This document shows positions 20,134 to 37,157 of a stretch of DNA of 37,458 nucleotides, piece after piece; position 1 is the first letter of the stretch, and every line of letters begins with the position of its first letter. The notes beneath the pieces were generated by a model, which searched no databases, was not told the DNA's origin, and was given only the letters and a program-made list of their open reading frames with translations. The DNA comes from Parabacteroides faecalis (GTDB lineage: Bacteria > Bacteroidota > Bacteroidia > Bacteroidales > Tannerellaceae), in assembly GCF_022809355.1 (NCBI RefSeq), contig NZ_JAKZMM010000040.1, positions 1 to 37,458 of the forward strand, read 5' to 3'. Position numbers and translations under genes: made by a program.

Positions 20134-20219
20134 TTTTTGACAGCTGTGGTAAAGCTTTTCCATATATGTCAAAAAGCTTTTCGATAGTTGTGCTAAAGCT
20201 TTACGACAGATGTCAAAAA
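20134..20219. repeat. Two tandem palindromic units (44-bp period)
   Basis: In the 20106-20474 gap, TAAAGCTTT occurs at 20150-20158 and 20194-20202, and ATGTCAAAAA at 20166-20175 and 20210-20219, both exactly 44 bp apart. Each unit is itself an inverted repeat: TTTTTGACAG... on one side and ...ATGTCAAAAA on the other, around AAAGCTTT. A third AAAGCTTT is at 20174-20181. Apart from the rny terminator, nothing else is seen in the gap. Confidence 0.7.
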
Positions 20220-23848: not shown

Positions 23849-24673
23849 TTATAGGATAAAAATACCAGATAAAATACGTCCGCTGTGAATTCCTTCCCGG
23901 CGGGCCGAAAAGAATCTGTCTGCGTGTTGGTAGGTACAAATCCGGGCATTCTCAATCTGTCGGGGAAGAATACCTTCGGCTTGCAGCTGCAGTTCGTTGG
24001 CTTTCCACAGGTCTATATGCGTTTTACCGGTTTTCGGATTATTCCAGCATAAGGACAACGTTTCTTCCGCTGTCCAGGCTCCAGATTGCCGGAAGGCTTC
24101 TACTACTTCTTCACCTACTTCGAATGCTTCCTGACTGATGGAAGGTCCAATGGCTGCTTGTATTAACTCTGGATTACATCCGGTTTCTCTGCTCATTTGT
24201 CGGACCGTTTTAGCAGCTATTTGTAAAACTGTACCTCGCCAACCGGCATGAATGGCTGCAACGGTTTTGGTATCGGGAGCATACAGCAGGACGGGAACGC
24301 AGTCGGCGGTTGAAACACTGACGCATACTTGGGGCAAAGACGTGAATAAGGCATCCACACCATCCAGTTGCTGCTTTTGTTGCATTTCCGTCAACTCCAT
24401 AAAGGCTGAGTCGATATGTATAATCCGGTCCTGATGCGTTTGATGTGGAGTAATGATATTCTGTACAGGCAATTGAATACCTTCTGCCAGTATTTCCCGG
24501 TTCTTACGGATGGAATCCGGGCAGTCGTCGGTATAAAGTCCCGGATTCATCTGGGCATAAGCTCCGGTACTGACGCCTCCCTGACGGGTAGTTATAAAAT
24601 GAGAAATGTTGCAATTGCCGGCCAGTCCGGGAAATTGCAACACTTCGAGGTTATTTTTCAGTGGACGGATCAT
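23849..24673 (-). CDS. pgeF: Multicopper-type nucleoside phosphorylase/peptidoglycan editing factor (PgeF)
   Basis: This is a DUF152/YfiH-family enzyme. Family members show purine nucleoside phosphorylase/adenosine deaminase activity and, in E. coli, remove wrongly incorporated amino acids from peptidoglycan precursors. Motifs are [16 protein letters not shown] (His ligands), [48 protein letters not shown]. The start at 24673 ([12 protein letters not shown]) gives 274 residues, the family length; the longer frame upstream is an obg shadow. Its first 23 bases overlap the obg end, so translation is probably coupled. Confidence 0.93.
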
Positions 24674-25832
24674 CGTCTGCATCTTCTTCATCATATTCTT
24701 CGTCGTCCCAGTCTTCGTATTCCACATAGTCTTCGTCATCGTCCTCTTCTTCCTCATAGGTGAAATCGTCGTCGTCATCAAACTGAAGTGTGCTGACGTC
24801 GATATTCTTGTGGACAATCTTCTCCGCTTCATGGAAAGTCTCTTTGTTCAGTTCATTCCAAAGAATGTCTTTCAGCTCTGTCAGTCCGAACTGAGCAACC
24901 GATGAAATGAATACATGCGGAATGCCTTCGGGCAGTTCTTTTTCCATTTCCTTCATCAGTTCTTCATCCAGCATATCACATTTGGTGATGGCCAGTACAC
25001 GGCTCTTGTTCACCAGATCCGGATTGTATTTGACCAGTTCGTTGTGAAGAATTTCGTATTCTTTCTTGATATCGTCGCTATCGGCCGGAATCATGAACAG
25101 TAGTAATGAGTTACGTTCGATATGACGCAGGAAGCGAAGTCCGAGTCCTTTTCCTTCACTGGCTCCTTCAATGATACCCGGAATATCGGCCATAATGAAA
25201 GAACGGTTGTCACGATAGCTGATAATTCCCAGGTTCGGTTCCAGGGTGGTAAACGGATAATTGGCAATTTTAGGCTTAGCGGCCGATAAAACAGATAATA
25301 AAGTGGATTTACCCGCATTCGGGAAACCTACCAAACCGACATCAGCCAATAATTTCAATTGCAGGATGACAAAACGTTCCTGAGCCGGTTCTCCTGGTTG
25401 TGCATACCGAGGCGCCTGATTGGTTGCCGTACGGAAGTTCCAGTTACCCAGTCCGCCTTTACCACCTTTCAGCAGCATGACCTTCTGACCGTCTTCCGTT
25501 ACATCACAGATGAATTCGCCGGTTTCAGCGTCATAGACAACTGTTCCGCAGGGAACTTCAATGATCTTGTCTTGTCCGTCTTTTCCGAAACTACGTTTGG
25601 CTCCTCCGCTTTCACCGTTGGTTGCCATGATGTGGCGGTCGTACTTCAGGTGAAGCAATGTCCAGTAATTCCGGTTCCCTCGAAGATAAATATGGCCTCC
25701 TCTTCCCCCGTTACCTCCGTCGGGACCACCTTTCGGAATATATTTGGCACGGCGAAAGTGAGAAGACCCTCGTCCGCCCTTACCTGAGCGGCAATAGATC
25801 TTTACATAATCTACAAAGTTGGATTCAGCCAT
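24651..25832 (-). CDS. obg: GTPase Obg
   Basis: This is a ribosome-associated GTPase needed for late 50S assembly and stress control. Glycine-rich Obg N-domain: [38 protein letters not shown] domain: GFPNAGKST (G1), DIPGIIEGA (G3), TKCD (G4). The C-terminal tail is very acidic (about residues 345-393), as in Bacteroidetes Obg. At 393 residues it has the expected length. It lies downstream of adk, with a hairpin (25865-25902) in between that may reduce read-through. Confidence 0.96.
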
Positions 25833-25864
25833 AGTTGCTAATGCTTAAGTTTTTGAGTTTATAC

Positions 25865-25902
25865 ATGGGCAAGGGGAGAAGCAGACTTGTCCTCTTGCCC
25901 AT
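25865..25902 (-). terminator. Hairpin between adk and obg
   Basis: ATGGGCAAGGGGA (25865-25877) pairs with TCCTCTTGCCCAT (25890-25902, one G-T pair). No strong T-run follows on the minus strand, so it may be a partial terminator or mRNA-processing structure. Confidence 0.55.
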
Positions 25903-25915
25903 TGATGGATTGAAC

Positions 25916-26488
25916 TTATTTTACTGCGTTGATAGCTTCTTTGATACGGCCGAAGATTTCTTCGATAGTCCCCATACCTTTAATAGCTACATGCTTGCCT
26001 TCATTTACATAGAAGTCGGCCAACGGAGCTGTCTGTTTGTGATAAACTTCCAGACGAGATTTGATTGTTTCCAGATTGTCGTCAGAACGACCTGATACTT
26101 TACCACGTTCCAACAGACGTTTGATCAATTCGTCTTCGTCAACCTGCAAGTTCAACATGATAGATACATCTGTACCACGTTCGTTCAACATCTTCTTCAG
26201 TGCTTCAGCCTGCGGGATTGTACGAGGGAAACCATCAAAGATAACACCTTTTGAATTAGCTTTGCTATCCAGAACCTTAGCCAACATGTTTACGATCAGT
26301 TCGTCTGGTACCAATTGACCTTTTTCGATGTAATCTTTGGCAATTTTACCCAGTTCTGTTTCATTCTTCATCTCAGAGCGCAAAACATCACCTGTTGAGA
26401 TATGATCCAAAGCATATTCTTTGATGATCAGCTCACTTTGTGTTCCCTTTCCTGAACCGGGAGCACCGAAAATAACTACATTCAACAT
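25916..26488 (-). CDS. adk: Adenylate kinase
   Basis: Adk interconverts ATP + AMP and 2 ADP. P-loop GAPGSGKGT (residues 8-16), the AMP-binding STGDVLR and GFPRTIPQA, and the LID region LERGKVSGRSDDN are present. The 190-residue form has a short LID without the zinc-finger insert. The ATG at 26488 (MLNVVIFG) has AGGAAG 8 nt upstream; the longer frame to 26533 is rejected. It is downstream of hpt by about 96 nt, in a purine/GTPase gene run. Confidence 0.96.
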   Translation of the reverse strand: MLNVVIFGAPGSGKGTQSELIIKEYALDHISTGDVLRSEMKNETELGKIAKDYIEKGQLVPDELIVNMLAKVLDSKANSKGVIFDGFPRTIPQAEALKKMLNERGTDVSIMLNLQVDEDELIKRLLERGKVSGRSDDNLETIKSRLEVYHKQTAPLADFYVNEGKHVAIKGMGTIEEIFGRIKEAINAVK

Positions 26489-26584
26489 ATAACACTTCCT
26501 TTTTTTACTTGACAATCGGAATTCGAATAGCATCGTTTCCCTGAATTGCCAAAATGATACATATATATTTTTTAGTTTCTGAGT

Positions 26585-27130
26585 TTACTCATCAATCACA
26601 TAGATGTCCCGATAAGCACGGCCCAGACCATCGTAATCCAGTCCGTGTCCGACAATAAAAGCCGGTGGAATCTGAATACCTACGTAATCCGGTTTCAGGT
26701 CACAACGCAGAGATTCCGGTTTGAAGAGCATGGTTGCCAGTTTGACTTCGGCAGCACCCTGTTCTTTCAGCTTCGCGATGACGTGCTTCATCGTAAAGCC
26801 CGTATCAATAATGTCTTCCAGCAGAATCAATGTCTTTCCCTGGATATTTTCCCGGATAGGCATGATCTCTTGTAAGACACCTGTACTGTTTGTCCCTGCA
26901 TATGATGCATAGCGGGCAAACGTGATTTCATAAGATTCATTCAATTCCGACATCAGTTCGGAAGCAAACATAAAGGCTCCGTTCAGGATACAAACAAACA
27001 GAACGTCCTGATCTTCGTGCTGTTTGATGTCATGCTCGATTTGCCGAGCCACTTGGGCAACCGCTTTCGCTATGGACTCCTGCGGAATAAATAACTTGAA
27101 TTTCTTGTCTTTTAGTTGAATCTTATCCAT
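26585..27130 (-). CDS. hpt: Hypoxanthine phosphoribosyltransferase
   Basis: Hpt salvages hypoxanthine and guanine with PRPP to IMP and GMP. The PRPP-binding motif LILLEDIIDTGFTMKHV, the flexible-loop region with SYAGTNSTG, the FVCILNGAFMFASEL segment and the C-terminal VGHGLDYDGLGRAYRDI match the family. At 181 residues it has the usual length. A minus-strand TAACTTTG -7 box (27153-27160) sits 23 nt upstream. It is the first gene of the hpt-adk-obg-pgeF run. Confidence 0.96.
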   Translation of the reverse strand: MDKIQLKDKKFKLFIPQESIAKAVAQVARQIEHDIKQHEDQDVLFVCILNGAFMFASELMSELNESYEITFARYASYAGTNSTGVLQEIMPIRENIQGKTLILLEDIIDTGFTMKHVIAKLKEQGAAEVKLATMLFKPESLRCDLKPDYVGIQIPPAFIVGHGLDYDGLGRAYRDIYVIDE

Positions 27131-27242
27131 AATAACTCTGCTTTTAAGGTTGCAAAGTTACAACATTTCGGGGATAATTAAAAAAATGAAGGTGTATCAA
27201 AATACAAAGAATGAAATACAGAGGCATAAAGCCATATCTGTT

Positions 27243-27713
27243 TTACCACGCATATAGTTCGTTGTAATTTCGCGGACGGTGTGCTTGGCGATACATGCCC
27301 GGAGTCATTCCGAATTCTTTCCGGAACAGATAGCCCATGGTGGACGAATTAGGATAGCCACACCGGGTGGCAATCTCGATGGCTGTCAGCGACGTGCAGC
27401 ACAGGTATTCCTGGACTTGCTTCAAACGGTAGAGTAACATAAAGCGAGAAAGAGACATACCGGTGAGTACCCGGATTGCCCCGTCCAGGTCTCTTACTTT
27501 CTTTTGGAAATACTCCGCCACTTCTGCTGGGTAGTAATACCTTTTTTCGTTGAGAAGCCTCACGAGGGCGTCCATAATTATGGAACCGCTGGGGCGTACA
27601 GCATGGTCGATCGGTATCATTTTGCTCCAACCTTCTTCGTTCTTGACCAATTTCGCCTTGAGGACACTGATGTAAACCTCGTCGATGCTGATTTGTGGGA
27701 TTGTTATTGCCAT
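27243..27713 (-). CDS. AraC-family regulator (short form)
   Basis: The 156-residue cytoplasmic protein ends with the AraC helix-turn-helix pair (about 80-150). The signs are FQKKVRDLDGAIRVLTG, SRFMLLYRLKQVQEYLCCTSLTAIEIA in part, and CGYPNSSTMGYLFRKEFGMTP. The preceding 70 residues are too short for a sugar-sensing domain. The target is unknown. The TGATA repeat array lies just upstream of its start (27790-27958), which makes that array a candidate binding region for this or another regulator. Confidence 0.85.
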   Translation of the reverse strand: MAITIPQISIDEVYISVLKAKLVKNEEGWSKMIPIDHAVRPSGSIIMDALVRLLNEKRYYYPAEVAEYFQKKVRDLDGAIRVLTGMSLSRFMLLYRLKQVQEYLCCTSLTAIEIATRCGYPNSSTMGYLFRKEFGMTPGMYRQAHRPRNYNELYAW

Positions 27714-27789
27714 ATATCCTTTGTTTTTCTACAAAAATAGTCATTTTATGACAAAAGAGTGGCTGATTTTGTCTGTCTTAAATCAGTTA

Positions 27790-27958
27790 TGATAAAATTT
27801 CCCATCTATTTGATAGATGTAGCTTCATCCTATCAACTGTATTCCTTTTTTTGATAGGATGAGGTTCATTAAAACAAATGAAGCTAAACTTTTATCAGAA
27901 TAGGTTTCTTTCTGATAAAAGTAGGGATTTTTTTGATAGGCGTAAGCTACATCTATCA
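27790..27958. repeat. Phased array of eight TGATA/TATCA motifs
   Basis: TGATA or its complement starts at 27790, 27811, 27831(-), 27852, 27893(-), 27913, 27934 and 27954(-). The steps are 21, 20, 21, 41, 20, 21 and 20 bp, a period of about 20.5 bp with one site missing. Oriented copies share TTTGATAGATGTAGCTT. Arms 27812-27836 and 27933-27957 match in inverted orientation at 22 of 25 positions. Two further 12-bp pairs exist: 27825-27836 with 27851-27862, and 27889-27900 with 27911-27922. No gene is present between 27714 and 28060. Confidence 0.75.
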
Positions 27959-28060
27959 AATGTAGGGGGAAGATTATGTTTAAAAGAGTTTTATCCGTTA
28001 AAAGTTAGGATTGAATACCTAGTTCTAATATTATTTAGTTGATCCCTTTTTTAATTCCAT

Positions 28061-28837
28061 TTAGTCAATAAAACAATAATCCTTATGATATTTCAAATAA
28101 CTCTTATGCGCTTCTTCTATACGGCAAAGCGACAATGTGGCAGTCAATCCCAATAAATACTTGTCGTTTTTGGAAAGCAATTTTGAGTAAAGTACTTTTC
28201 CCTCAGGATTGAATGTTATATAGCCCAAATCGAATAGCTTATCATAATTGGGCAAAAGTAATAATCCGTTGAATACATCCAACCGTTCATCATTTGTTGA
28301 ATCTTTCCAAGGCTTTATGTGAGAAGCCACTAATATATCTGTTAAAGAGCACTTGCTTATAGCACATCCCCCCCAATACTTTATCAAGTCATTACGAAAG
28401 ACTCCTTGCCCCCTTCTTGACAAAATAATTGCTTCTTTTTCAGTAACAGATAAATGATGATTTTCTTTAATCATTTTAATTTCAGATAAAATACTATTTT
28501 CATACCGCTTATGATAATCAGATTTCAGAAAATCTAAAAATTTACGTAAACCGGAACGAAAATCAGAGATGGATTTTCGTGTGTTATATTTACTTCTTTC
28601 AATATAACATACTTCTTCTTTCCGTAAAATTTCTTCTACGCCTTCTTCATCTAAAGTATTATCTATATGATAAGTTGCTGAAAGAAATTTTAATCTCGAA
28701 ATATAGTCCCTACTCGTTTTGGGGGTTAAACCACCTTCAGTAATCATGTAGTGATAAAAATCCGATTGAATATTCAAAAAATGTTTTTCCTCCTTGTTCA
28801 TCAAATTATTATTTTCTTCATTATCTACTTTTTCCAT
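28061..28837 (-). CDS. HNH endonuclease with integrase-like N-terminal half
   Basis: The 258-residue protein joins two parts. Residues about 15-112 are helical and resemble the SAM-like core-binding domain of tyrosine integrases (FYHYMITEGGLTPKTSRDYI, FRSGLRKFLDFL). Residues about 140-225 form an HNH nuclease of the restriction-enzyme type: FRNDLIKYWGGCAIS, ASHIKPWKDSTNDERLD, NGLLLLPNYDKLFDLGYITF. Catalytic His and Asn/His positions look intact. The ATG at 28837 is used; the longer frame begins at TTG. No methyltransferase is adjacent. It is likely a DNA nuclease in defence or element biology (inference). The 5' flank has CACACA/TGTGTG around 28840-28853. Confidence 0.75.
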   Translation of the reverse strand: MEKVDNEENNNLMNKEEKHFLNIQSDFYHYMITEGGLTPKTSRDYISRLKFLSATYHIDNTLDEEGVEEILRKEEVCYIERSKYNTRKSISDFRSGLRKFLDFLKSDYHKRYENSILSEIKMIKENHHLSVTEKEAIILSRRGQGVFRNDLIKYWGGCAISKCSLTDILVASHIKPWKDSTNDERLDVFNGLLLLPNYDKLFDLGYITFNPEGKVLYSKLLSKNDKYLLGLTATLSLCRIEEAHKSYLKYHKDYCFID

Positions 28838-29254
28838 TGCACACAACTGTGTGTTTAAACTTGTACGTATTCTTCACTCAACCAATCCAAGTAAACTCTA
28901 TTCCTTACATGGTAGAGTAAATAATAAGTATCGTTTAAAGTTTTACGCACATTATATCTATATCTTTTTCTAGAGGCAGGTGGCTGTAGGCTTTAGGAAC
29001 TGTTATGTCTTCCTACTTGACCAAACCGACAGCTAGAGTTACTGTGAATTCTTTTAGGGTTCATATCAATTTAAGTTTAGCAATGCTTTTTTTGTTTGTA
29101 AAGATAGGAAATTTACGTTGCTTGTTAAGTGTTTTAGAAATTCTGATTATCAAAAATCATTTTTGATAATTATTGAATCAGTTTTAATAGATTAGGAGTG
29201 CAAAGGATTCCATACCTTTACAAAAGTATTTATTAGAATGGGAATATATAAGAT
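28838..29254. other. Intergenic region with a strong palindrome
   Basis: There is no gene here. ATTATCAAAAA (29146-29156), TCA, TTTTTGATAAT (29160-29170) is a perfect 11-bp inverted repeat about 85 nt before the rhamnosidase ATG, a good operator candidate. No clear TAnnTTTG box is seen for that gene; TACCTTTA at about 29213 is close. Confidence 0.55.
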
Positions 29255-32077
29255 ATGAAAAGATTATTATTATCAGCTTTGTTATTAATAGGTTCCGTTT
29301 TTTATTCCAATGGAGAAAATTTACCTACTAAATCTTCATTCTCTAAAGCTAAAGGGGATTTGTATGAGACTTTTAAGAATCCGGGAGCTCAGTACAGACC
29401 TTTTGTGAGATGGTGGTGGAATGGATTGAAGATCGATAAAGACGAGATTGCACGTGAATTGGATTTGATGAAAGAAATTGGGATCGGTGGTGTTGAAATC
29501 AATTCGATCCGATTTCCGGATGGGGCTGATAGCCTGAATTATCAAAGCAAGCCTTATTTGTCGGATGAATGGGCGGATATGATTTCCTTTACAGCCGATG
29601 CTTGCCGGGAACGGGGTATGATTTGTGATATGATCGGTGGCTCCGGATGGCCGTTTGGTGGGGAGTTTTTGCCTCGTAACCAGCAGTTGCAGATGCTTAC
29701 AATTGAAACAGTCAAGGTAGATGGCGGAAAAACGGGAACGGATTTTTCCATTCGAAAAGATGAACTTCTGGCGCGTGTGAATCCTCCGATTGCTTCCAAG
29801 AATGAACATCCGTTGAAAGAGTTGGTATATATTCGGCTGATGCCTGCCCGAGTAGACGAATTTACCGAAGGAACGTCTTTTGATTCTTTGGTAAATAAGG
29901 ATCAGATAACCGTTCAAGTGCCGGCTGGCGAACATGTCATTTATTTCTTTGTGAAGATGACCGGTTATATGAATGTGATTAATGGAGCTCCGGGAGCCAG
30001 TGGTCCGGTGTTGAACCATTTTAATAAAGATGCCGTACTGGCTTATTTATCCCGATTGTCAGATAAGGTCCATTTTAATGATCCCAGCCTGAAAGGGAAG
30101 ATCCGGGCTACCTTTGTCGATAGCTTTGAATTGGAAGGAGCCAACTGGTGTGACGGTATGTTGGAAAAGTGGGAAAAATATTTTGGCTATTCTTTATATC
30201 CTTATTTACCTTATATTATCAAGAAGATTGGACATATGGGGAATCCGTTACCCGAAAATTATGGCAGTACATTTTCTGAGAAGATAAAAAAGGATGTGGA
30301 ATATCGGGTTCGAAATGACTTCGAGCGGTTTCAGATTTATCTGTTTCAGGAGAACTTCATCAATACGTTAAATGATTGGTGCCGGAAAAATGGGGTACAA
30401 TCGCGAGTTCAGGCTTATGGCCGGGCTTTACATCCGCTGGAATCGAGCATGTATATTGATATTCCTGAATGTGAATCGTGGTTATGGCAGGATGTTGGCT
30501 TTAAATTGACAGAGAATAGAGTCATTGGTGAGGGACATGGTTTCTCATGCAATAATAAGTTTACGGCTTCAGGCTCATTGCTTGCCGGAAATGGAAAAGT
30601 CAGTTGTGAAGAGCTGACCAATACGGGGAATATCTATCAGTCAACATTGGAAGACATCAAAATAACGGGCGATATGAGTAATATCTCCGGTGTCAACCAT
30701 TCTATTCTGCATGGATTTAATTATAGTCCCCGCGAAGCCGGTTTCCCGGGTTGGGTGCAATACGGTGATTATTTCAACGAACATAATACCTTCTGGCCGT
30801 ATTATCATTACTGGATGGATTATAAGGCTCGCGTCAGTGCTATACTGCAAAACAGTATTCCGCAGTCGGATATAGCCATTCTTCCGCCTCTGGAAGATAT
30901 GTGGTCTGTTTTAGGCCAACAACGGGATCCGTTCCCGGAAAATATCTTCCCGGCTTATGCCCATGACTTGTGGCAAAATCTGCATCAGAACGGAAATGGA
31001 TGTGATTATGTAAGTGAACATATTTTACAGCAGGCGCGGATAGCGAAGGGAAAACTGTCGTTTGGTCCCAGAACCTATCAGACGCTGATTTTACTGGATG
31101 TAGAAAGTCTGGATCCCAAAACGGCTGTTGCCATTGAACAGTTTGTGAAAAAAGGAGGTAAGGTTATTTGTATCGGAAAAAGACCGCATCAAAGCATTGG
31201 TTTTGCTGATTATGAGCAAAAGTCGCTTACCGTTCAATCGGTTTTCGATAACTTGTTCGAAGCTTATCCGGATCGGATTGTCAATATTCCGGCTCCAACT
31301 TTACCGCAGACGGAATGGTTTGCCCATGTACAGAAAGAATTGGATCTGAAGCCGTATGTAAAAGTAGATAAACCGGTCAAATGGATGTTCTATAATTATT
31401 ACAAATCTGGTGATAAGGATATTTTCTTCATTACCAACTTTAACCGTCAGTGTAGCTATCAGGTCAATTTAAGCTTTACCGATGCCGTTCGGGGTAAACA
31501 GGCCTGGCTTTGGGATGCTGAAACCGGAAAAAGATATCTTCTTGATCAGGACGGATCTTCTATGGCATTACGGTTTGGTCCGGCCGAATCTAAGTTCATC
31601 GTCTTTGACAAGCTGAAAACGGGTAAACCTTACCAGGCTCTTCCTCTGGAACCAGACAGCGTCCGGTTGATCGGTAAGGTATGGAACGTACAGGCAAACC
31701 ATGTAGACGGTTCAACTCAGACCTTTGAAATAGACAGTCTGGTCGATTTCAACACACTGCCCTTTGTCTGGATGAAGCATTTTGCCGGGACATTAAGCTA
31801 TACAACGACATTTCGGGTAGATGATCCGAACGCCTTTCGCGTTATCAATACCGGAAAGGCTCGGGGCGTTGTCGAGGTCTATCTCAATGGCGAAAAGATT
31901 GGTACCCATTGGTATGGCGAAGCCGTATTCGATATCCGGCACAAACTTAAACCGGGAGAAAATCAGTTACAAATAAAACTCGTTACACCTTTAGGCAATT
32001 ATGCGACGACCATCACCCGGCGCTATGCTTCGTCGATGGAAGAGATTGGATTACAAGGTCCGGTCCGGATGTATTGA
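29255..32077 (+). CDS. GH106-type alpha-L-rhamnosidase
   Basis: This secreted glycoside hydrolase likely removes alpha-L-rhamnose from plant or microbial polysaccharides. An N-terminal signal peptide (MKRLLLSALLLIGSVFYSNG) is followed by the family opening (YRPFVRWWWNGLKIDKDEI, LDLMKEIGIGGVEINSI), the central NHSILHGFNYSPREAGFPGW and PQSDIAILPP segments, and a C-terminal beta-sandwich (about 790-930: NGEKIGTHWYGEAVFDI, LKPGENQLQIKL). At 940 residues it is shorter than many GH106 enzymes (about 1100). No SusC/SusD pair or other polysaccharide genes are nearby, so it is a stand-alone enzyme here. Assignment is from overall pattern; catalytic glutamates were not mapped. Confidence 0.85.
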   Translation: MKRLLLSALLLIGSVFYSNGENLPTKSSFSKAKGDLYETFKNPGAQYRPFVRWWWNGLKIDKDEIARELDLMKEIGIGGVEINSIRFPDGADSLNYQSKPYLSDEWADMISFTADACRERGMICDMIGGSGWPFGGEFLPRNQQLQMLTIETVKVDGGKTGTDFSIRKDELLARVNPPIASKNEHPLKELVYIRLMPARVDEFTEGTSFDSLVNKDQITVQVPAGEHVIYFFVKMTGYMNVINGAPGASGPVLNHFNKDAVLAYLSRLSDKVHFNDPSLKGKIRATFVDSFELEGANWCDGMLEKWEKYFGYSLYPYLPYIIKKIGHMGNPLPENYGSTFSEKIKKDVEYRVRNDFERFQIYLFQENFINTLNDWCRKNGVQSRVQAYGRALHPLESSMYIDIPECESWLWQDVGFKLTENRVIGEGHGFSCNNKFTASGSLLAGNGKVSCEELTNTGNIYQSTLEDIKITGDMSNISGVNHSILHGFNYSPREAGFPGWVQYGDYFNEHNTFWPYYHYWMDYKARVSAILQNSIPQSDIAILPPLEDMWSVLGQQRDPFPENIFPAYAHDLWQNLHQNGNGCDYVSEHILQQARIAKGKLSFGPRTYQTLILLDVESLDPKTAVAIEQFVKKGGKVICIGKRPHQSIGFADYEQKSLTVQSVFDNLFEAYPDRIVNIPAPTLPQTEWFAHVQKELDLKPYVKVDKPVKWMFYNYYKSGDKDIFFITNFNRQCSYQVNLSFTDAVRGKQAWLWDAETGKRYLLDQDGSSMALRFGPAESKFIVFDKLKTGKPYQALPLEPDSVRLIGKVWNVQANHVDGSTQTFEIDSLVDFNTLPFVWMKHFAGTLSYTTTFRVDDPNAFRVINTGKARGVVEVYLNGEKIGTHWYGEAVFDIRHKLKPGENQLQIKLVTPLGNYATTITRRYASSMEEIGLQGPVRMY

Positions 32078-32949
32078 GCTTGTTGGCGGGAATAATGATC
32101 CGGTTATGTTTTGTGTTATTACAATTTTCCATAAATCAGTCTGATTAGTTATTGATAAATAAAAGTCTATTCCGAAAACCCTCAGGCAAAGATAGTTGGC
32201 GGGTTTGGGGCGGCAGACGATTAAGGTCTATTAGGGTCGGTTAATCACAGATAAAGTCAGTTATTCTGTGGAGGGTGTTCTTATGGGCTTAGAGGAAAAC
32301 CAACGAGAATCAAAAAGGATATTCGAGAGAATTCATTGGGATTCTCGTGACAACCGATTGAGAGGATAACGGGATGGAATGTTGCCGTATTTTTTGATTT
32401 TTGAAAGCAACCCTTTCTATCTTTATTTCTTTATTCTTTCTTTCTAATATATAAGGTGGTTGGTTTTGTGGCATGAGTGTGGCTGGATTCTGCTTATAAG
32501 GGCTTGACGCTTAGTTTTTTATTTGGTTGAAATGTGGCTGCTTCTGTGGCTTTAAAATAATGTAAATGATTTTAGAGAATTTTAGTGTTATGTAAATTAT
32601 TGGTTTATAGTAATATATGTAACTGCCTTGGAAAAAGTTTAGGAAAAAGAGTTGGTAAACGTGGATTGAACGTTTCTCTAATTCTCTCAGAATATTCCAC
32701 AATGACAAAGTTTCTTAGTTACTTGATTGGGTATAGCAATAAATAGTATTATCTGACTTTATCTGTTGTTATTCGAACTTTCAGTATGGTGTATGAAGAA
32801 CGAACTGCTACATTTGCATGCAAGTTGTTCGGGAAACTTTTTGAAGACTGGATCTGTGAAAATAGAATGTTGGATTAAACAAAGAAAATATGAAAACAAA
32901 TCCTTACATTTGTCGGAAATAATTTAAAGACGAAGAATACTGGAAAGCT
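32078..32949. other. 870-bp region without a gene
   Basis: No convincing coding frame is seen. Contents are an inverted repeat ACGAGAATC (32303-32311) / GATTCTCGT (32340-32348), an A/T-rich stretch, and two TACATTTG -7 boxes (32809-32816 and 32905-32912). The second probably serves nnr, 38 nt downstream; the first may start a short untranslated RNA or a longer leader. No -33 elements at proper distance are visible. Confidence 0.5.
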
Positions 32950-34461
32950 ATGATAAAAATATTTGCAACAGAAAAAGTTAAAGATATTGATAAATACACG
33001 ATTCTGAATATGCCGATTGCTCCGATCGATCTGGTGGAAGAGGCAGTTACAGCGTTTGTGAATGAGTTTAGAAACCATTACTCGAAGATGCATCGGATTG
33101 TCGTTTTTGCCGGCCAGGGAAATAATGGGGCTGATGCATTGGGCATTGCCAGGCAGTTATTGGACGAATCGTATAAGGTCATTGTATATCTGTTTAACCC
33201 GACGGGTTATCTGAGTCCGGAGTGTGCAGAGAACAAACGTCGTTTATTGAATATTGATCAGGTGGAATTTACAGAGATACGGGATAATTTCATTCCGCCT
33301 TATCTGTCATCTCGGGATGTGGTGATCGACGGTCTGTTTGGTTCGGGACTGAATCGTCCGTTGAGTGGAGGCTTTGCCGGATTGGTGAAGTATATCAATA
33401 GCACACCGGCTGAAATTGTTTCGATCGATATTCCTTCAGGTTTGTTTGGTGAAGACAACCGAGAGAATGACAAGGACTGTATCATCCGCGCTAATAAGAC
33501 ATTTACTTTCAATTTCCCGAAACTCTCGTTTCTGATGCCCGAGAATGAAGTGTATGTAGGTGAATGGAAGGTATTGAATATCAATATGCATCCACAAGCT
33601 GTTGCAGATACGCCGACGAATTATTATTTGGTGACGGAAGAAGATATTGCTTGTGTATTCCAGCCTCGTAAACGATTTACGCATAAAGGAACATACGGTC
33701 ATGCCTTGTTGGTAGCCGGAAGTCGCGGTAAATTAGGAGCAGCTCAGTTGTCTGCCGGCGCTTGTCTACGCAGTGGTGTGGGGATGCTGACGGTTCATTT
33801 GCCTAAATGCGGAGAATTGATGATGCAAACGGCTCTGCCGGAAGCGATGGTTGATTTGGATGCGCATACGGATTTCTTTACGGTGGCTCCGGATATTACA
33901 CCTTATACAACATTGGGAGTAGGACCGGGTTTAGGACAGCAAATCGAAACAGCCGTGGCTTTGGACGAACTGATGTCGGCTGTCATCAAACCGGTTGTGT
34001 TGGATGCCGATGCCTTGAACCTGATCGCTTCGAATAAGGATATTCTGAATAAGATACCGACCCGCAGTATTCTGACTCCGCATCCGAAAGAATTTGACCG
34101 TTTGGCTGGAGCCAGCAATTCTGCTTACGAGCGGTTGCAGAAGGCTCGTGAGTTTGCCAAGGAACATCGATTGTGCGTTGTCTTGAAAGATGCTTACACG
34201 GCTATTTGTACTTCCGAAGGAAATGTGTATTACAGTGTCTGCGGTAATCCGGGAATGGCAACAGCTGGCAGTGGTGATGTCTTGACCGGCATTATCTTAG
34301 GTTTGCTGGCGCAAGGGTATGAACCGGAAACGGCAGCGGTAGCAGGTGTTTTCTTACATGGGACAGCTGGTGATTTGGCCGCAGCTCAATGGAGTGAACG
34401 TGGAATGATAGCCGGAGATCTGATTGATTCATTGGGAAAAGCCTTTAAGCAGGTTATTTGA
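32950..34461 (+). CDS. nnr: Bifunctional NAD(P)H-hydrate epimerase / ADP-dependent dehydratase
   Basis: Nnr repairs hydrated NADH and NADPH. The N-terminal YjeF epimerase domain (about 1-215) carries IVVFAGQGNNGADALGIAR and VVIDGLFGSGLNRPLSGG. The C-terminal carbohydrate-kinase-like dehydratase domain (about 225-503) has THKGTYGHALLVAGSRGKLGA in part, GVGPGLGQ, VLDADALNLI, LTPHPKEFDRL and the catalytic NPGMATAGSGDVLTGI. In the epimerase loop the usual NNGGDG reads NNGADA, a small deviation. At 503 residues the length is normal for the fused form. A TACATTTG -7 box precedes it. Confidence 0.95.
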   Translation: MIKIFATEKVKDIDKYTILNMPIAPIDLVEEAVTAFVNEFRNHYSKMHRIVVFAGQGNNGADALGIARQLLDESYKVIVYLFNPTGYLSPECAENKRRLLNIDQVEFTEIRDNFIPPYLSSRDVVIDGLFGSGLNRPLSGGFAGLVKYINSTPAEIVSIDIPSGLFGEDNRENDKDCIIRANKTFTFNFPKLSFLMPENEVYVGEWKVLNINMHPQAVADTPTNYYLVTEEDIACVFQPRKRFTHKGTYGHALLVAGSRGKLGAAQLSAGACLRSGVGMLTVHLPKCGELMMQTALPEAMVDLDAHTDFFTVAPDITPYTTLGVGPGLGQQIETAVALDELMSAVIKPVVLDADALNLIASNKDILNKIPTRSILTPHPKEFDRLAGASNSAYERLQKAREFAKEHRLCVVLKDAYTAICTSEGNVYYSVCGNPGMATAGSGDVLTGIILGLLAQGYEPETAAVAGVFLHGTAGDLAAAQWSERGMIAGDLIDSLGKAFKQVI

Positions 34462-34508
34462 TTGGCAAGGGTAAAAGGATATTGTAGAAACACAAACGTA
34501 TAGTCAGA

Positions 34509-35426
34509 ATGAGAAAAGTATTGTTTTTGTTGTGGATAGGTTGTTTGTTCGGTTTTATGAGCTGTACTTCACAACCTGTCGCTGAAAAAGCCCCGCAATG
34601 GAAAGCCAAGCATGTGGTTTTGATCGGTATTGATGGATGGGGTTCGTATAGTGTTGAGAAAGCGCAAATACCTAACATCCGTTTCTTAATGGACAGTGGT
34701 GCTTATACCTTGCAGAAACGTTCGGTATTGCCTTCGTCGAGTGCTGTCAACTGGGCTTCGATGTATATGGGAGCCGGTCCGGAATTACACGGATATTGTG
34801 AATGGGGTTCGCAAGTACCGGATCTGCCTTCGCGGGTAGTAAATAAGAACGGAATTTTCCCGACCATCTTCTCTGAGTTGAGAGCCGTTGCTCCCGAAGC
34901 AGAGATCGGAAATATTTACGAATGGGATGGAATCCGCTATCTGGTGGATACATTGTCAGTTAATTATGACCGTCATGTTGCGGAAGTGAGCAAAGATTCT
35001 ACGGCTACGGCCCGTTGTGCTGTTGAATATATTCGGGATAAGAAACCGGCATTGGTGAATATCGTGTTCGATGCCTTAGACCATGTTGGGCATGCTGCGG
35101 GTCATGATACACCGGCCTATTACGATAAGCTGGAAGAGATTGATGGCTATGTAGGAGAAATCGTACAGGCGGTTAAAGAAGCTGGTATTTGGGATGAAAG
35201 TATCATCATTGTAACTGCCGACCATGGAGGAATCGAAAAGGGACATGGTGGACGTACCATGCAGGAAATGGAAACGCCTTTTATTATTTGTGGCCAGCAT
35301 ATCAAGAAAGGCTATAAACTGGAAGACAGTATGATGCAGTTTGATATCGCATCGACTATCGCTTCTATCTTTGCTATCCAGCAACCTCAAGTATGGATTG
35401 GCCGTCCGATGGATGTTTTTGAGTAA
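34509..35426 (+). CDS. Alkaline phosphatase-family lipoprotein (phosphodiesterase/nucleotide pyrophosphatase type)
   Basis: The 305-residue protein has a lipoprotein signal peptide with lipobox FMSC (Cys19), so it is anchored in the envelope. It belongs to the type I phosphodiesterase/nucleotide pyrophosphatase branch of the alkaline phosphatase superfamily. VLIGIDGWG holds the first metal Asp, SSSAVNWASMYMG the nucleophile Ser/Thr region, FDALDHVGHAAGHD two metal ligands, and TADHGGIEKGHGG the last Asp-His pair. The substrate is unknown; it probably splits phosphodiesters or phosphate esters in the periplasm. It lies 47 nt after nnr, possibly cotranscribed, with a strong terminator behind it. 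Confidence 0.88.
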   Translation: MRKVLFLLWIGCLFGFMSCTSQPVAEKAPQWKAKHVVLIGIDGWGSYSVEKAQIPNIRFLMDSGAYTLQKRSVLPSSSAVNWASMYMGAGPELHGYCEWGSQVPDLPSRVVNKNGIFPTIFSELRAVAPEAEIGNIYEWDGIRYLVDTLSVNYDRHVAEVSKDSTATARCAVEYIRDKKPALVNIVFDALDHVGHAAGHDTPAYYDKLEEIDGYVGEIVQAVKEAGIWDESIIIVTADHGGIEKGHGGRTMQEMETPFIICGQHIKKGYKLEDSMMQFDIASTIASIFAIQQPQVWIGRPMDVFE

Positions 35427-35451
35427 ATGAATCAGCATGAAGGATAAAGGG

Positions 35452-35485
35452 AAAGGTGAGTCAGTGAGTTGGCTCACCTTTTTTT
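35452..35485 (+). terminator. Terminator after the phosphatase gene
   Basis: AAAGGTGAGTCA (35452-35463) pairs with TGGCTCACCTTT (35470-35481, one G-T pair). A T-run continues to 35485. Confidence 0.85.
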
Positions 35486-35527
35486 GTAGAACTTACCTTC
35501 GTAATAATTCCTATTCGGATGTATAAT

Positions 35528-35559
35528 TTTGGACGAGAAATAAAAAATCAGTATGTTTG
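35528..35559 (+). promoter_or_regulatory. Promoter of the AAA-ATPase gene
   Basis: TTTG (35528-35531), 20 nt, TATGTTTG (35552-35559), 47 nt before the ATG. Confidence 0.7.
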
Positions 35560-35606
35560 TAAAGGCCATGTACAAGATGGACTGCAATAGATAAAATGGG
35601 AATATT

Positions 35607-37157
35607 ATGAATAGAATCTATCCGGTAGGCATACAGAATTTTGAAGAAATACGCAAGGGTAATTATTGCTATGTAGATAAGACGGCATTGATTCATCGGC
35701 TTGTGTATAGTGGCAAATATTATTTTCTGAGCCGTCCGCGACGATTCGGAAAGAGTCTTCTTATCTCTACCTTAGAGGCTTATTTCCAAGGTAAGAAAGA
35801 ACTTTTCAACGGTTTGGCCATGGAAACATTGGAGAAGGATTGGACCGTATATCCCGTTTTACATCTTGATTTAAACAACGAGAAGTATGACAGTCCGGAT
35901 AAACTCGATGGAATTCTTCATAATGTTTTGTGCAGATGGGAAGAAATCTATGGGAAAAGAGACAGTGAAACCAGTTTGTCATTGCGTTTTCAGGGAATCA
36001 TACAGCGTGCGTCAGAAAAGACGGGACATCATGTTGTCATTCTGATTGATGAATATGACAAACCGATGCTTCAAGCCTTAGGCGATGAAACCTTGCTGAA
36101 CGATTATCGGAACACGTTGAAAGCTTTTTATGGAACATTGAAAAGTTGTGACCAATATATCAAGTTTGCTTTGCTTACCGGAGTGACAAAATTCAGCAAG
36201 GTGAGTGTATTCAGCGACTTGAATAATCTGATGGATATATCTATTGATGACCGTTTTACTAATCTTTGTGGAATAACAGAAGAAGAACTTTACCTGAATT
36301 TCCAAGAAGATATTATAGCGTTGGGGGAAAATAACGGAATGACATCGGAAGAAGCGAAATCAACGTTGAAGAAACTTTACGACGGTTATCATTTTGCAGG
36401 GAATAGCGATGATATTTACAATCCGTTCAGTTTATTGAATACGTTTGCCAAAATGAGATTCGGTAGCTATTGGTTCGAAACCGGTACGCCGACTTTTCTG
36501 GTAGAATTGTTGAAACGTAGTAAATATAATTTGCATCGTCTGACTGAAGAATTGGCCAGTGCCGACTGTTTAGGAGGAATAGATTCGATGAATACGAATC
36601 CGGTTCCTATTTTATATCAGAGTGGCTATCTCACGATAAAGGGATACGACAAGGAATTCGATGTGTATTCATTAGGTTTCCCGAATAAGGAAGTTGAAGA
36701 GGGTTTTACCCGTTATCTTTTACTGAATTATGCACATTTGGAAACAGGGAATCCTTCTTTTGAGATCGTAAGCTTTGTCAAGGATGTGCGTAAGGGCGAT
36801 ATCGATTCTTTCATGCGCCGGTTACAGAGTTTCTTTGCCGATACGCCTTATGAGCTGACAAGGGATTTGGAATTACATTATCAGAATGTTCTTTTCATTG
36901 TATTTAAACTTTTAGGCTTCTATACACAGGCTGAATATCATACATCCCATGGTCGGATAGACTTAGTGGTGAAGACTGACAAATATATTTATGTGATGGA
37001 ATTTAAATTGGATGGCTCTGCAGATGAAGCGATGAGGCAGATCCATGAAAAGCAGTACACAGCTCCGTTTGTTTCGGATTCCCGCAAAATATATAAGATT
37101 GGTGTGAATTTCAGTAAAGATGTCAGAGGTATTGAGAAATGGGTTGTAGAAGAATAA
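35607..37157 (+). CDS. AAA-ATPase with C-terminal PD-(D/E)XK nuclease domain
   Basis: This 516-residue protein is of the large Bacteroidales family that pairs an AAA-ATPase-like domain with a PD-(D/E)XK domain. The opening YPVGIQNFEEIRKGNYCYVDKT and Walker A region FLSRPRRFGKSL (about 39-50) are diagnostic; Walker B is VILIDEYDKP (about 147-156). The C-terminal nuclease core (about 440-490) shows YHTSHGRIDLVVKTDKYIYVMEFKLDG in part, with Asp and ExK placed as in the fold. Members occur in many copies per genome. The function is unproven; defence, toxin or mobile-element roles have been suggested. It has its own promoter, and an IS begins 135 nt downstream. Confidence 0.9.
   Translation: MNRIYPVGIQNFEEIRKGNYCYVDKTALIHRLVYSGKYYFLSRPRRFGKSLLISTLEAYFQGKKELFNGLAMETLEKDWTVYPVLHLDLNNEKYDSPDKLDGILHNVLCRWEEIYGKRDSETSLSLRFQGIIQRASEKTGHHVVILIDEYDKPMLQALGDETLLNDYRNTLKAFYGTLKSCDQYIKFALLTGVTKFSKVSVFSDLNNLMDISIDDRFTNLCGITEEELYLNFQEDIIALGENNGMTSEEAKSTLKKLYDGYHFAGNSDDIYNPFSLLNTFAKMRFGSYWFETGTPTFLVELLKRSKYNLHRLTEELASADCLGGIDSMNTNPVPILYQSGYLTIKGYDKEFDVYSLGFPNKEVEEGFTRYLLLNYAHLETGNPSFEIVSFVKDVRKGDIDSFMRRLQSFFADTPYELTRDLELHYQNVLFIVFKLLGFYTQAEYHTSHGRIDLVVKTDKYIYVMEFKLDGSADEAMRQIHEKQYTAPFVSDSRKIYKIGVNFSKDVRGIEKWVVEE

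Follow-up and report, generated by a model that had tools for sequence, protein, structure and literature searches.

The phased run of TGATA/TATCA motifs at 27790..27958 (no strand assigned) in the analysed stretch of Parabacteroides faecalis DNA (the window, all 37,458 nucleotides of it) is one of a class of operator-like arrays that are tied to a small AraC-type gene family. It probably acts in cis as an operator array to which the protein encoded by the adjacent AraC-type gene binds, presumably for autoregulation. The class was absent from plain sequence searches and became visible only when the regions upstream of protein relatives were read.

A phased array directly upstream of an AraC-type gene

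Site positions and shuffled sequences define the array as eight TGATA-type half-sites in 20.5-bp steps, with starts at 27790 (+), 27811 (+), 27831 (−), 27852 (+), 27893 (−), 27913 (+), 27934 (+) and 27954 (−). An earlier sequence-only reading of this DNA had listed eight copies at the same starts, a 20.5-bp period with a single missing position near 27873 and an extended consensus among the oriented copies, and each of these was recovered. Neighbouring sites lie 20–21 bp apart on a lattice with a vacancy near 27873, and the oriented sites share the pattern TTTGATAG...GTAGCTTC, i.e., TGATA and AGCT about one helical turn (about 10 bp) apart. The extended half-site TTTGATAGATGTAGCTT is present in two exact copies, one at 27809..27825 (+) and one inverted at 27944..27960 (−). 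Overall, the sites of the array are degenerate and their orientation is mixed.

Chance was evaluated within the 348-bp intergenic stretch 27714–28061, allowing lattice periods of 19.5–22 bp. All eight TGATA/TATCA occurrences fell on one lattice; the best of 3000 dinucleotide-preserving shuffles placed four, so that none came near an eight-site lattice. When any 5-mer and its complement were allowed, 0 of 1000 shuffles reached eight sites (best, five). When a 350-bp frame was moved across the window in steps of 175 bp, at least six sites were found only in two overlapping stretches, both at the array.

The array directly precedes the start of an AraC-type gene at 27243..27713 (−), a position upstream of this gene that had been noted before. 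Its 156-aa product, the presumed array binder, was recognized by an HTH_18 match (residues 66–143 against profile positions 2–79 of 80) and by the family profile. The protein contains a complete double HTH, and the family profile finds 31 solved relatives, most of which start at profile positions 43–61; 12aw starts at position 10, and 1wpk covers only 51–106. Structure prediction from the single sequence gave a mean pLDDT of 41, and no match to the protein was found in the defence library. The AraC-type gene is followed by a phosphoribosyltransferase gene (same strand, gap of 112 bp) and then by adenylate kinase and Obg-type genes.

The −7 promoter box of Bacteroidota is TAnnTTTG. We take TATTTTTG at 27732..27739 (−), located 26 bp before the ATG, to be such a box, which places the array upstream of the transcript expected from this putative promoter. 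Across the family, 20 of 54 loci have TAnnTTTG at 10–60 bp upstream of the ATG, and 29 of 54 have TAnnTTnG there.

We propose that the two helix-turn-helix units of the AraC-type protein read two neighbouring major grooves, and that sites placed every two turns, in either orientation, would align several protein copies on one DNA face. The aligned copies may then act cooperatively on the promoter of the AraC-type gene itself. Most family members possess an array with its own half-site sequence. Since a protein of this kind seems to have its array as its principal target, the two could change together quickly with the 41–42 bp rhythm kept. Binding by the adjacent protein, its cooperativity, autoregulation and the sign of that regulation, and private specificity are all proposed here from sequence.

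Arrays upstream of the AraC-type gene family

A first search detected relatives of the AraC-type protein at 33–45% identity in 10 of 38 genomes of the genus, that of P. faecalis counted, with up to 12 per genome. A profile that included distant members, with at most 31 candidates scored per genome, located 63 places, distributed over 23 of the 121 genomes searched in the taxonomic family. In wider samples, where at most nine candidates were scored per genome, the first profile matched one genome besides that of P. faecalis among 393 of the order (G331), and the wider profile one among 395 of the phylum (G877; a partial match with internal stops). At the thresholds used, the gene family is rare outside the taxonomic family. 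With L085 and L092 added to the 63 places, 65 loci in 24 genomes were examined, and 64 of them were testable, L025 being left out for too little upstream DNA.

An upstream array was found in 59 of the 64 testable loci, where it beat all 100 dinucleotide shuffles; the same 59 loci score at least 14. They are spread over 22 genomes and four genera, the positives from genera other than that of the window being L073 and L181 (both in G057), L170 (G119) and L171 (G100). The best period was 42 bp in 26 loci, 41 bp in 22, 40 bp in six and 43 bp in five. No upstream array was detected in L029, L031, L092, L101 and L138 (5/64). The P. faecalis genome itself carries three family members (L020, L030 and L036), each with its own array. 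The suggestion of the sequence-only reading that the phasing reflects a protein bound on one DNA face gains support from this recurrence of the rhythm beside AraC-type relatives, and the AraC-type gene is the likely partner. Scored solely as a direct repeat of 38–45 bp, the array of the window reached 17, a low score that reflects its degenerate sites and their mixed orientation and that ranks it with the weakest of the 59.

As a control, other AraC-type genes were scored at the threshold of 14, and two of 30 testable loci (L105 and L116) were positive. The control set comprised 26 of the 30 loci given for 103 matches (G000, G019 and G026) and four of ten weak matches; none of these four was positive at that threshold. 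Under a laxer test, in which a locus had to exceed 20 simple shuffles, five of the 26 control loci from G000, G019 and G026 passed. The stretch further upstream of the family genes scored 14 or more in 0 of 64 loci and the stretch downstream in two of 57 (L092 and L136). Of the two positive controls, L105 (G026) encodes a 299-aa AraC-type regulator of ordinary size and has a phased repeat at about −242 to −149 with a step near 21 bp (CCTAAAGATACATA), and L116 shows several repeated pieces upstream.

L092 (G331) is a distant, short AraC-type gene with a strong array (score 208, units of about 42 bp) that is located downstream, not upstream, from the gene end to about +430. This 3′ array indicates that arrays may have a role beyond the promoter. 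It would suit a protein that coats its own array and thereby organizes or labels a chromosomal site, much in the manner of a centromere-binding protein, any effect on the promoter being incidental. The length of the arrays (up to about nine units) points the same way. So does the next downstream ORF: at 41 of 65 loci it has the opposite strand orientation, and often, therefore, no operon is served; it is on the same strand in 19, the window included, and was not seen in five, and the description of the family members as solo genes holds only in part. Nevertheless, we regard such a nucleoprotein anchor as unlikely, since a position upstream of the gene start (59/64) suits promoter control better and up to 12 different arrays per genome suit no single segregation site.

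One rhythm with locus-specific letters

In 50 pooled loci, direct recurrence of 7-mers (at most one mismatch) exceeded that in shuffles 5.8 and 7.1 fold at 41–42 bp and 3.6–7.7 fold at 82–84 bp. Inverted recurrence exceeded it 2.9–4.1 fold at about 17–25 bp and 1.9–4.1 fold at about 60–67 bp. In the common plan, the orientation of half-sites alternates at intervals of about two turns, and the period of 40–43 bp corresponds to about four helical turns. Both the 20.5-bp step of the window and the inverted spacing of the family (about 17–25 bp) agree with the two helical turns that separate sites in AraC-type operators. Dyad symmetry inside the consensus unit was significant by shuffling in some arrays only.

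The rhythm is shared and the letters are specific to the locus. Motifs were compared for 49 loci from a set of 54, from which L025, L029, L031, L092 and L101 were left out. The mean motif cosine was 0.004–0.010 for proteins less than 50% identical (1146 pairs), 0.031 at 50–60% identity (21 pairs) and 0.154 at 60% or more (nine pairs). Motif and protein similarity were correlated weakly (Mantel r 0.110; 6 of 2000 permutations as high), a relation that rests on syntenic pairs sharing descent. For pairs from the same genome with proteins less than 45% identical, the mean cosine was 0.007 (106 pairs). This difference of letters within one genome makes a shared regulon reader improbable. Operators read by a foreign protein are common, and the array could in principle belong to another regulator for which the adjacent AraC-type gene is merely a target; yet the arrays go with one AraC-type family and not with the other AraC-type genes, and we consider a foreign or shared reader a quite improbable explanation.

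If the AraC-type product binds the array, the distribution of matching sites fits a target that would be mainly self-directed, for the two arrays examined and at a sensitivity at which weak sites would escape. The 17-mer of the window, allowing up to three mismatches, has 29 matches in the P. faecalis genome (two exact, both in the array) vs. 22 for a control. For the degenerate 17-mer of the L042 array, G010 contains six exact matches, none of them outside the array, and four one-mismatch matches outside it vs. six for the pattern read backward.

Half-site constraint and fast change at syntenic loci

Three loci that occupy one place in three genomes (L133, L134 and L137) were aligned by distance to the ATG, ungapped, with L137 shifted by one base, and read on a 25/17-bp lattice of 7-mers that was chosen after the sites were seen. 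Identity is 79% over the 56 half-site columns and 33% over the rest. When the lattice was slid over all 42 phases, identity was best at shifts 0 and +1 (0.79 and 0.80) and did not exceed 0.66 beyond two bases. The neighbours at this place (pairs L133/L137 and L134/L137) are 80–91% identical, with pS of 0.49–0.81. The 23 half-sites of the trio show ATTCGT at 1.2–1.9 bits per base; these sites were picked by their likeness to the core, and the alignment is the better test. The half-site of an AraC-type operator is bipartite, with boxes about 10 bp apart. In the window's sites TGATA and AGCT are about that far apart; in the trio only one core is clear. None of the 54 loci compared proved to be syntenic with that of the window itself.

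The trio also bears on the other idea of the sequence-only reading, a serial hairpin RNA. Folding, which had been suggested as a check, gave the array region a stability far beyond that of its shuffles on either strand (z −8.4 and −9.1), and the region contains a 61-nt imperfect inverted repeat. Both observations would suit a structured RNA or a dispersed repeat such as a MITE; a stable fold on both strands arises because nested inverted repeats must fold. In the trio the letters of the half-sites are kept, not just their pairing, which speaks for a DNA-binding protein rather than an RNA hairpin. The array, moreover, lies upstream of the putative −7 box, and Rfam gave no match at the array, only three tRNAs being found across the window at gathering scores; the hairpin RNA is therefore less likely, and a known structured RNA was rejected. 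A dispersed element or MITE was rejected as well. No strong dispersed copy was found in the P. faecalis genome, where high similarity was to the array itself only. Searched against the genomes of 98 relatives, the array DNA found only itself and one 35-bp match in G079, and plasmid and phage records yielded no match. With a rhythm that lacks a common sequence across loci and a link to one gene family, a structured RNA or a dispersed repeat is hardly to be expected. Similarly, a contingency locus, in which slippage of tandem repeats changes copy number and switches the gene on or off, would suit the many loci with tandem, homogeneous arrays (up to 94% match) and variable copy number (up to about nine units), but the arrays of the window, L133, L134 and L137 are not homogeneous and keep half-sites in register between free spacers, which is beyond slippage alone and leaves this explanation with very little credence.

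The operator reading supposes quick joint change of protein and array, and the syntenic loci show that the protein changes fast. The AraC-type proteins of L040/L098 are 45% identical and the compared neighbours 97% and 94%; the corresponding values are 72% vs. 99% and 99% for L087/L093, 76% vs. 96% and 93% for L094/L097, and 52% vs. 99% and 73% for L023/L049. For L025/L041, whose arrays are not comparable, the protein is 75% and one neighbour 98% identical. The contrast with the neighbours is smaller for L038/L095 (71% vs. 82% and 71%) and L049/L080 (74% vs. 96% and 64%). The arrays of L040/L098, L087/L093 and L094/L097 are largely different; related half-sites persist in L023, L049 and L080 (TTTGTTC-type) and in L038 and L095 (TTTTTC.ATCAT-type). 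For L094/L097, the gene dS of 0.50 is close to the 0.55 of one neighbour, indicating that the protein itself evolves fast. In some syntenic pairs the dS of the AraC-type gene is above that of the neighbours, as for L040/L098 (1.31 vs. 0.80 and 0.54), and replacement by another, diverged allele is possible. The dN/dS of the AraC-type gene (Nei-Gojobori) was below 1 in every pair with finite dS. In ten syntenic pairs, differences did not cluster in the recognition helices (0.38 and 0.33 vs. 0.32 in residues 1–60 and 0.25–0.44 elsewhere).

A more speculative extension of the operator reading is that each paralogue reads only its own array, that repeat turnover spreads new half-site variants with the HTH domain following, and that specificity at a given place on the chromosome drifts or is pushed to diverge. 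Taken as a whole this is a tentative idea that we think is rather less likely to be right than wrong. If true, the family would be a case of bacterial molecular drive or of selfish protein-DNA pairs, with up to 12 independent replicas per genome.

Relation to known systems

The sequence-only reading matched the array to no known element type, a view that stands only in part. One report (PMC3878776) describes, for AraC-type hybrid two-component regulators of Bacteroides, two conserved sites that average 21 bp apart and are interpreted as two monomers bound to one side of the DNA, two helix turns apart. The ~21-bp step and the AraC-type DNA-binding domain are common to both systems, and the hybrid regulators have one two-site direct repeat before their target operons (PMC3878776). 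In contrast, the arrays described here have about four to nine units with alternating half-sites, stand before their own gene and differ in their letters from locus to locus. By analogy, a 21-bp step repeated upstream of the gene itself suggests a row of proteins on one face that would act cooperatively on the promoter. In our literature searches, no description of a private multi-site array for each AraC-type paralogue was found, which is the part of the earlier view that holds. The arrays are of the AraC-type operator kind, unusual in their multiplicity, their locus-specific letters and their speed of change.

Plasmid iterons and centromere-like repeats are phased repeats beside the gene of their binding protein, and the arrays resemble them in adjoining the gene of the presumed binder. 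They differ in lying on chromosomal contigs and in the AraC-type nature of that protein; no replication or partition gene was found among the ten window proteins scanned (23849–37157), and a plasmid iteron or centromere system was rejected. Like MarA, SoxS and RamA, the AraC-type protein has little beyond the double HTH domain and, by sequence, the same fold; unlike them, it has an extra N-terminal part and a multi-site array before its own gene.

In this family, one protein-DNA recognition system would exist in dozens of natural replicas with fixed geometry and varying letters, within a genus and even at one chromosomal place. Two questions would thereby become open to direct test: by what code AraC-type HTH domains specify their sites, and in what way a regulator and its operator can change jointly and yet stay in contact. 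Should binding be confirmed, the pairs would be a ready set of mutually insulated regulator-operator parts.

Other repeats and the HNH gene of the window

Elsewhere in the window, direct-repeat scores of 27 and 17 were obtained at 20134–20219 and 24691–24779, respectively, the first higher than that of the TGATA array and the second equal to it. The former is a short repeat of 44-bp period with partly inverted pieces (GACAGCTGTGGTAAAGCTTTT).

On the other side of the array lies an HNH gene (28061–28846, −) whose 3′ end faces it, in agreement with the position given for the array earlier. A partnership of the HNH gene with the array was not supported, since none of the three relatives' loci has a phased TGATA/TATCA run, and the sequence downstream of both Bacteroides caecigallinarum HNH genes contains no such array; the gene looks like a bystander. 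Its product gave a weak match to a tyrosine-recombinase-type N-terminal SAM-like domain and matches to restriction-type HNH models. Relatives 86–88% identical were found in B. caecigallinarum and none in the genus of the window, so the gene is perhaps a recent arrival. Immediately past the HNH gene the two B. caecigallinarum loci (L051 is one) have sequence in common and then diverge within about 200 bases, and at one of the two the genes that follow resemble those of an IS66-type element.
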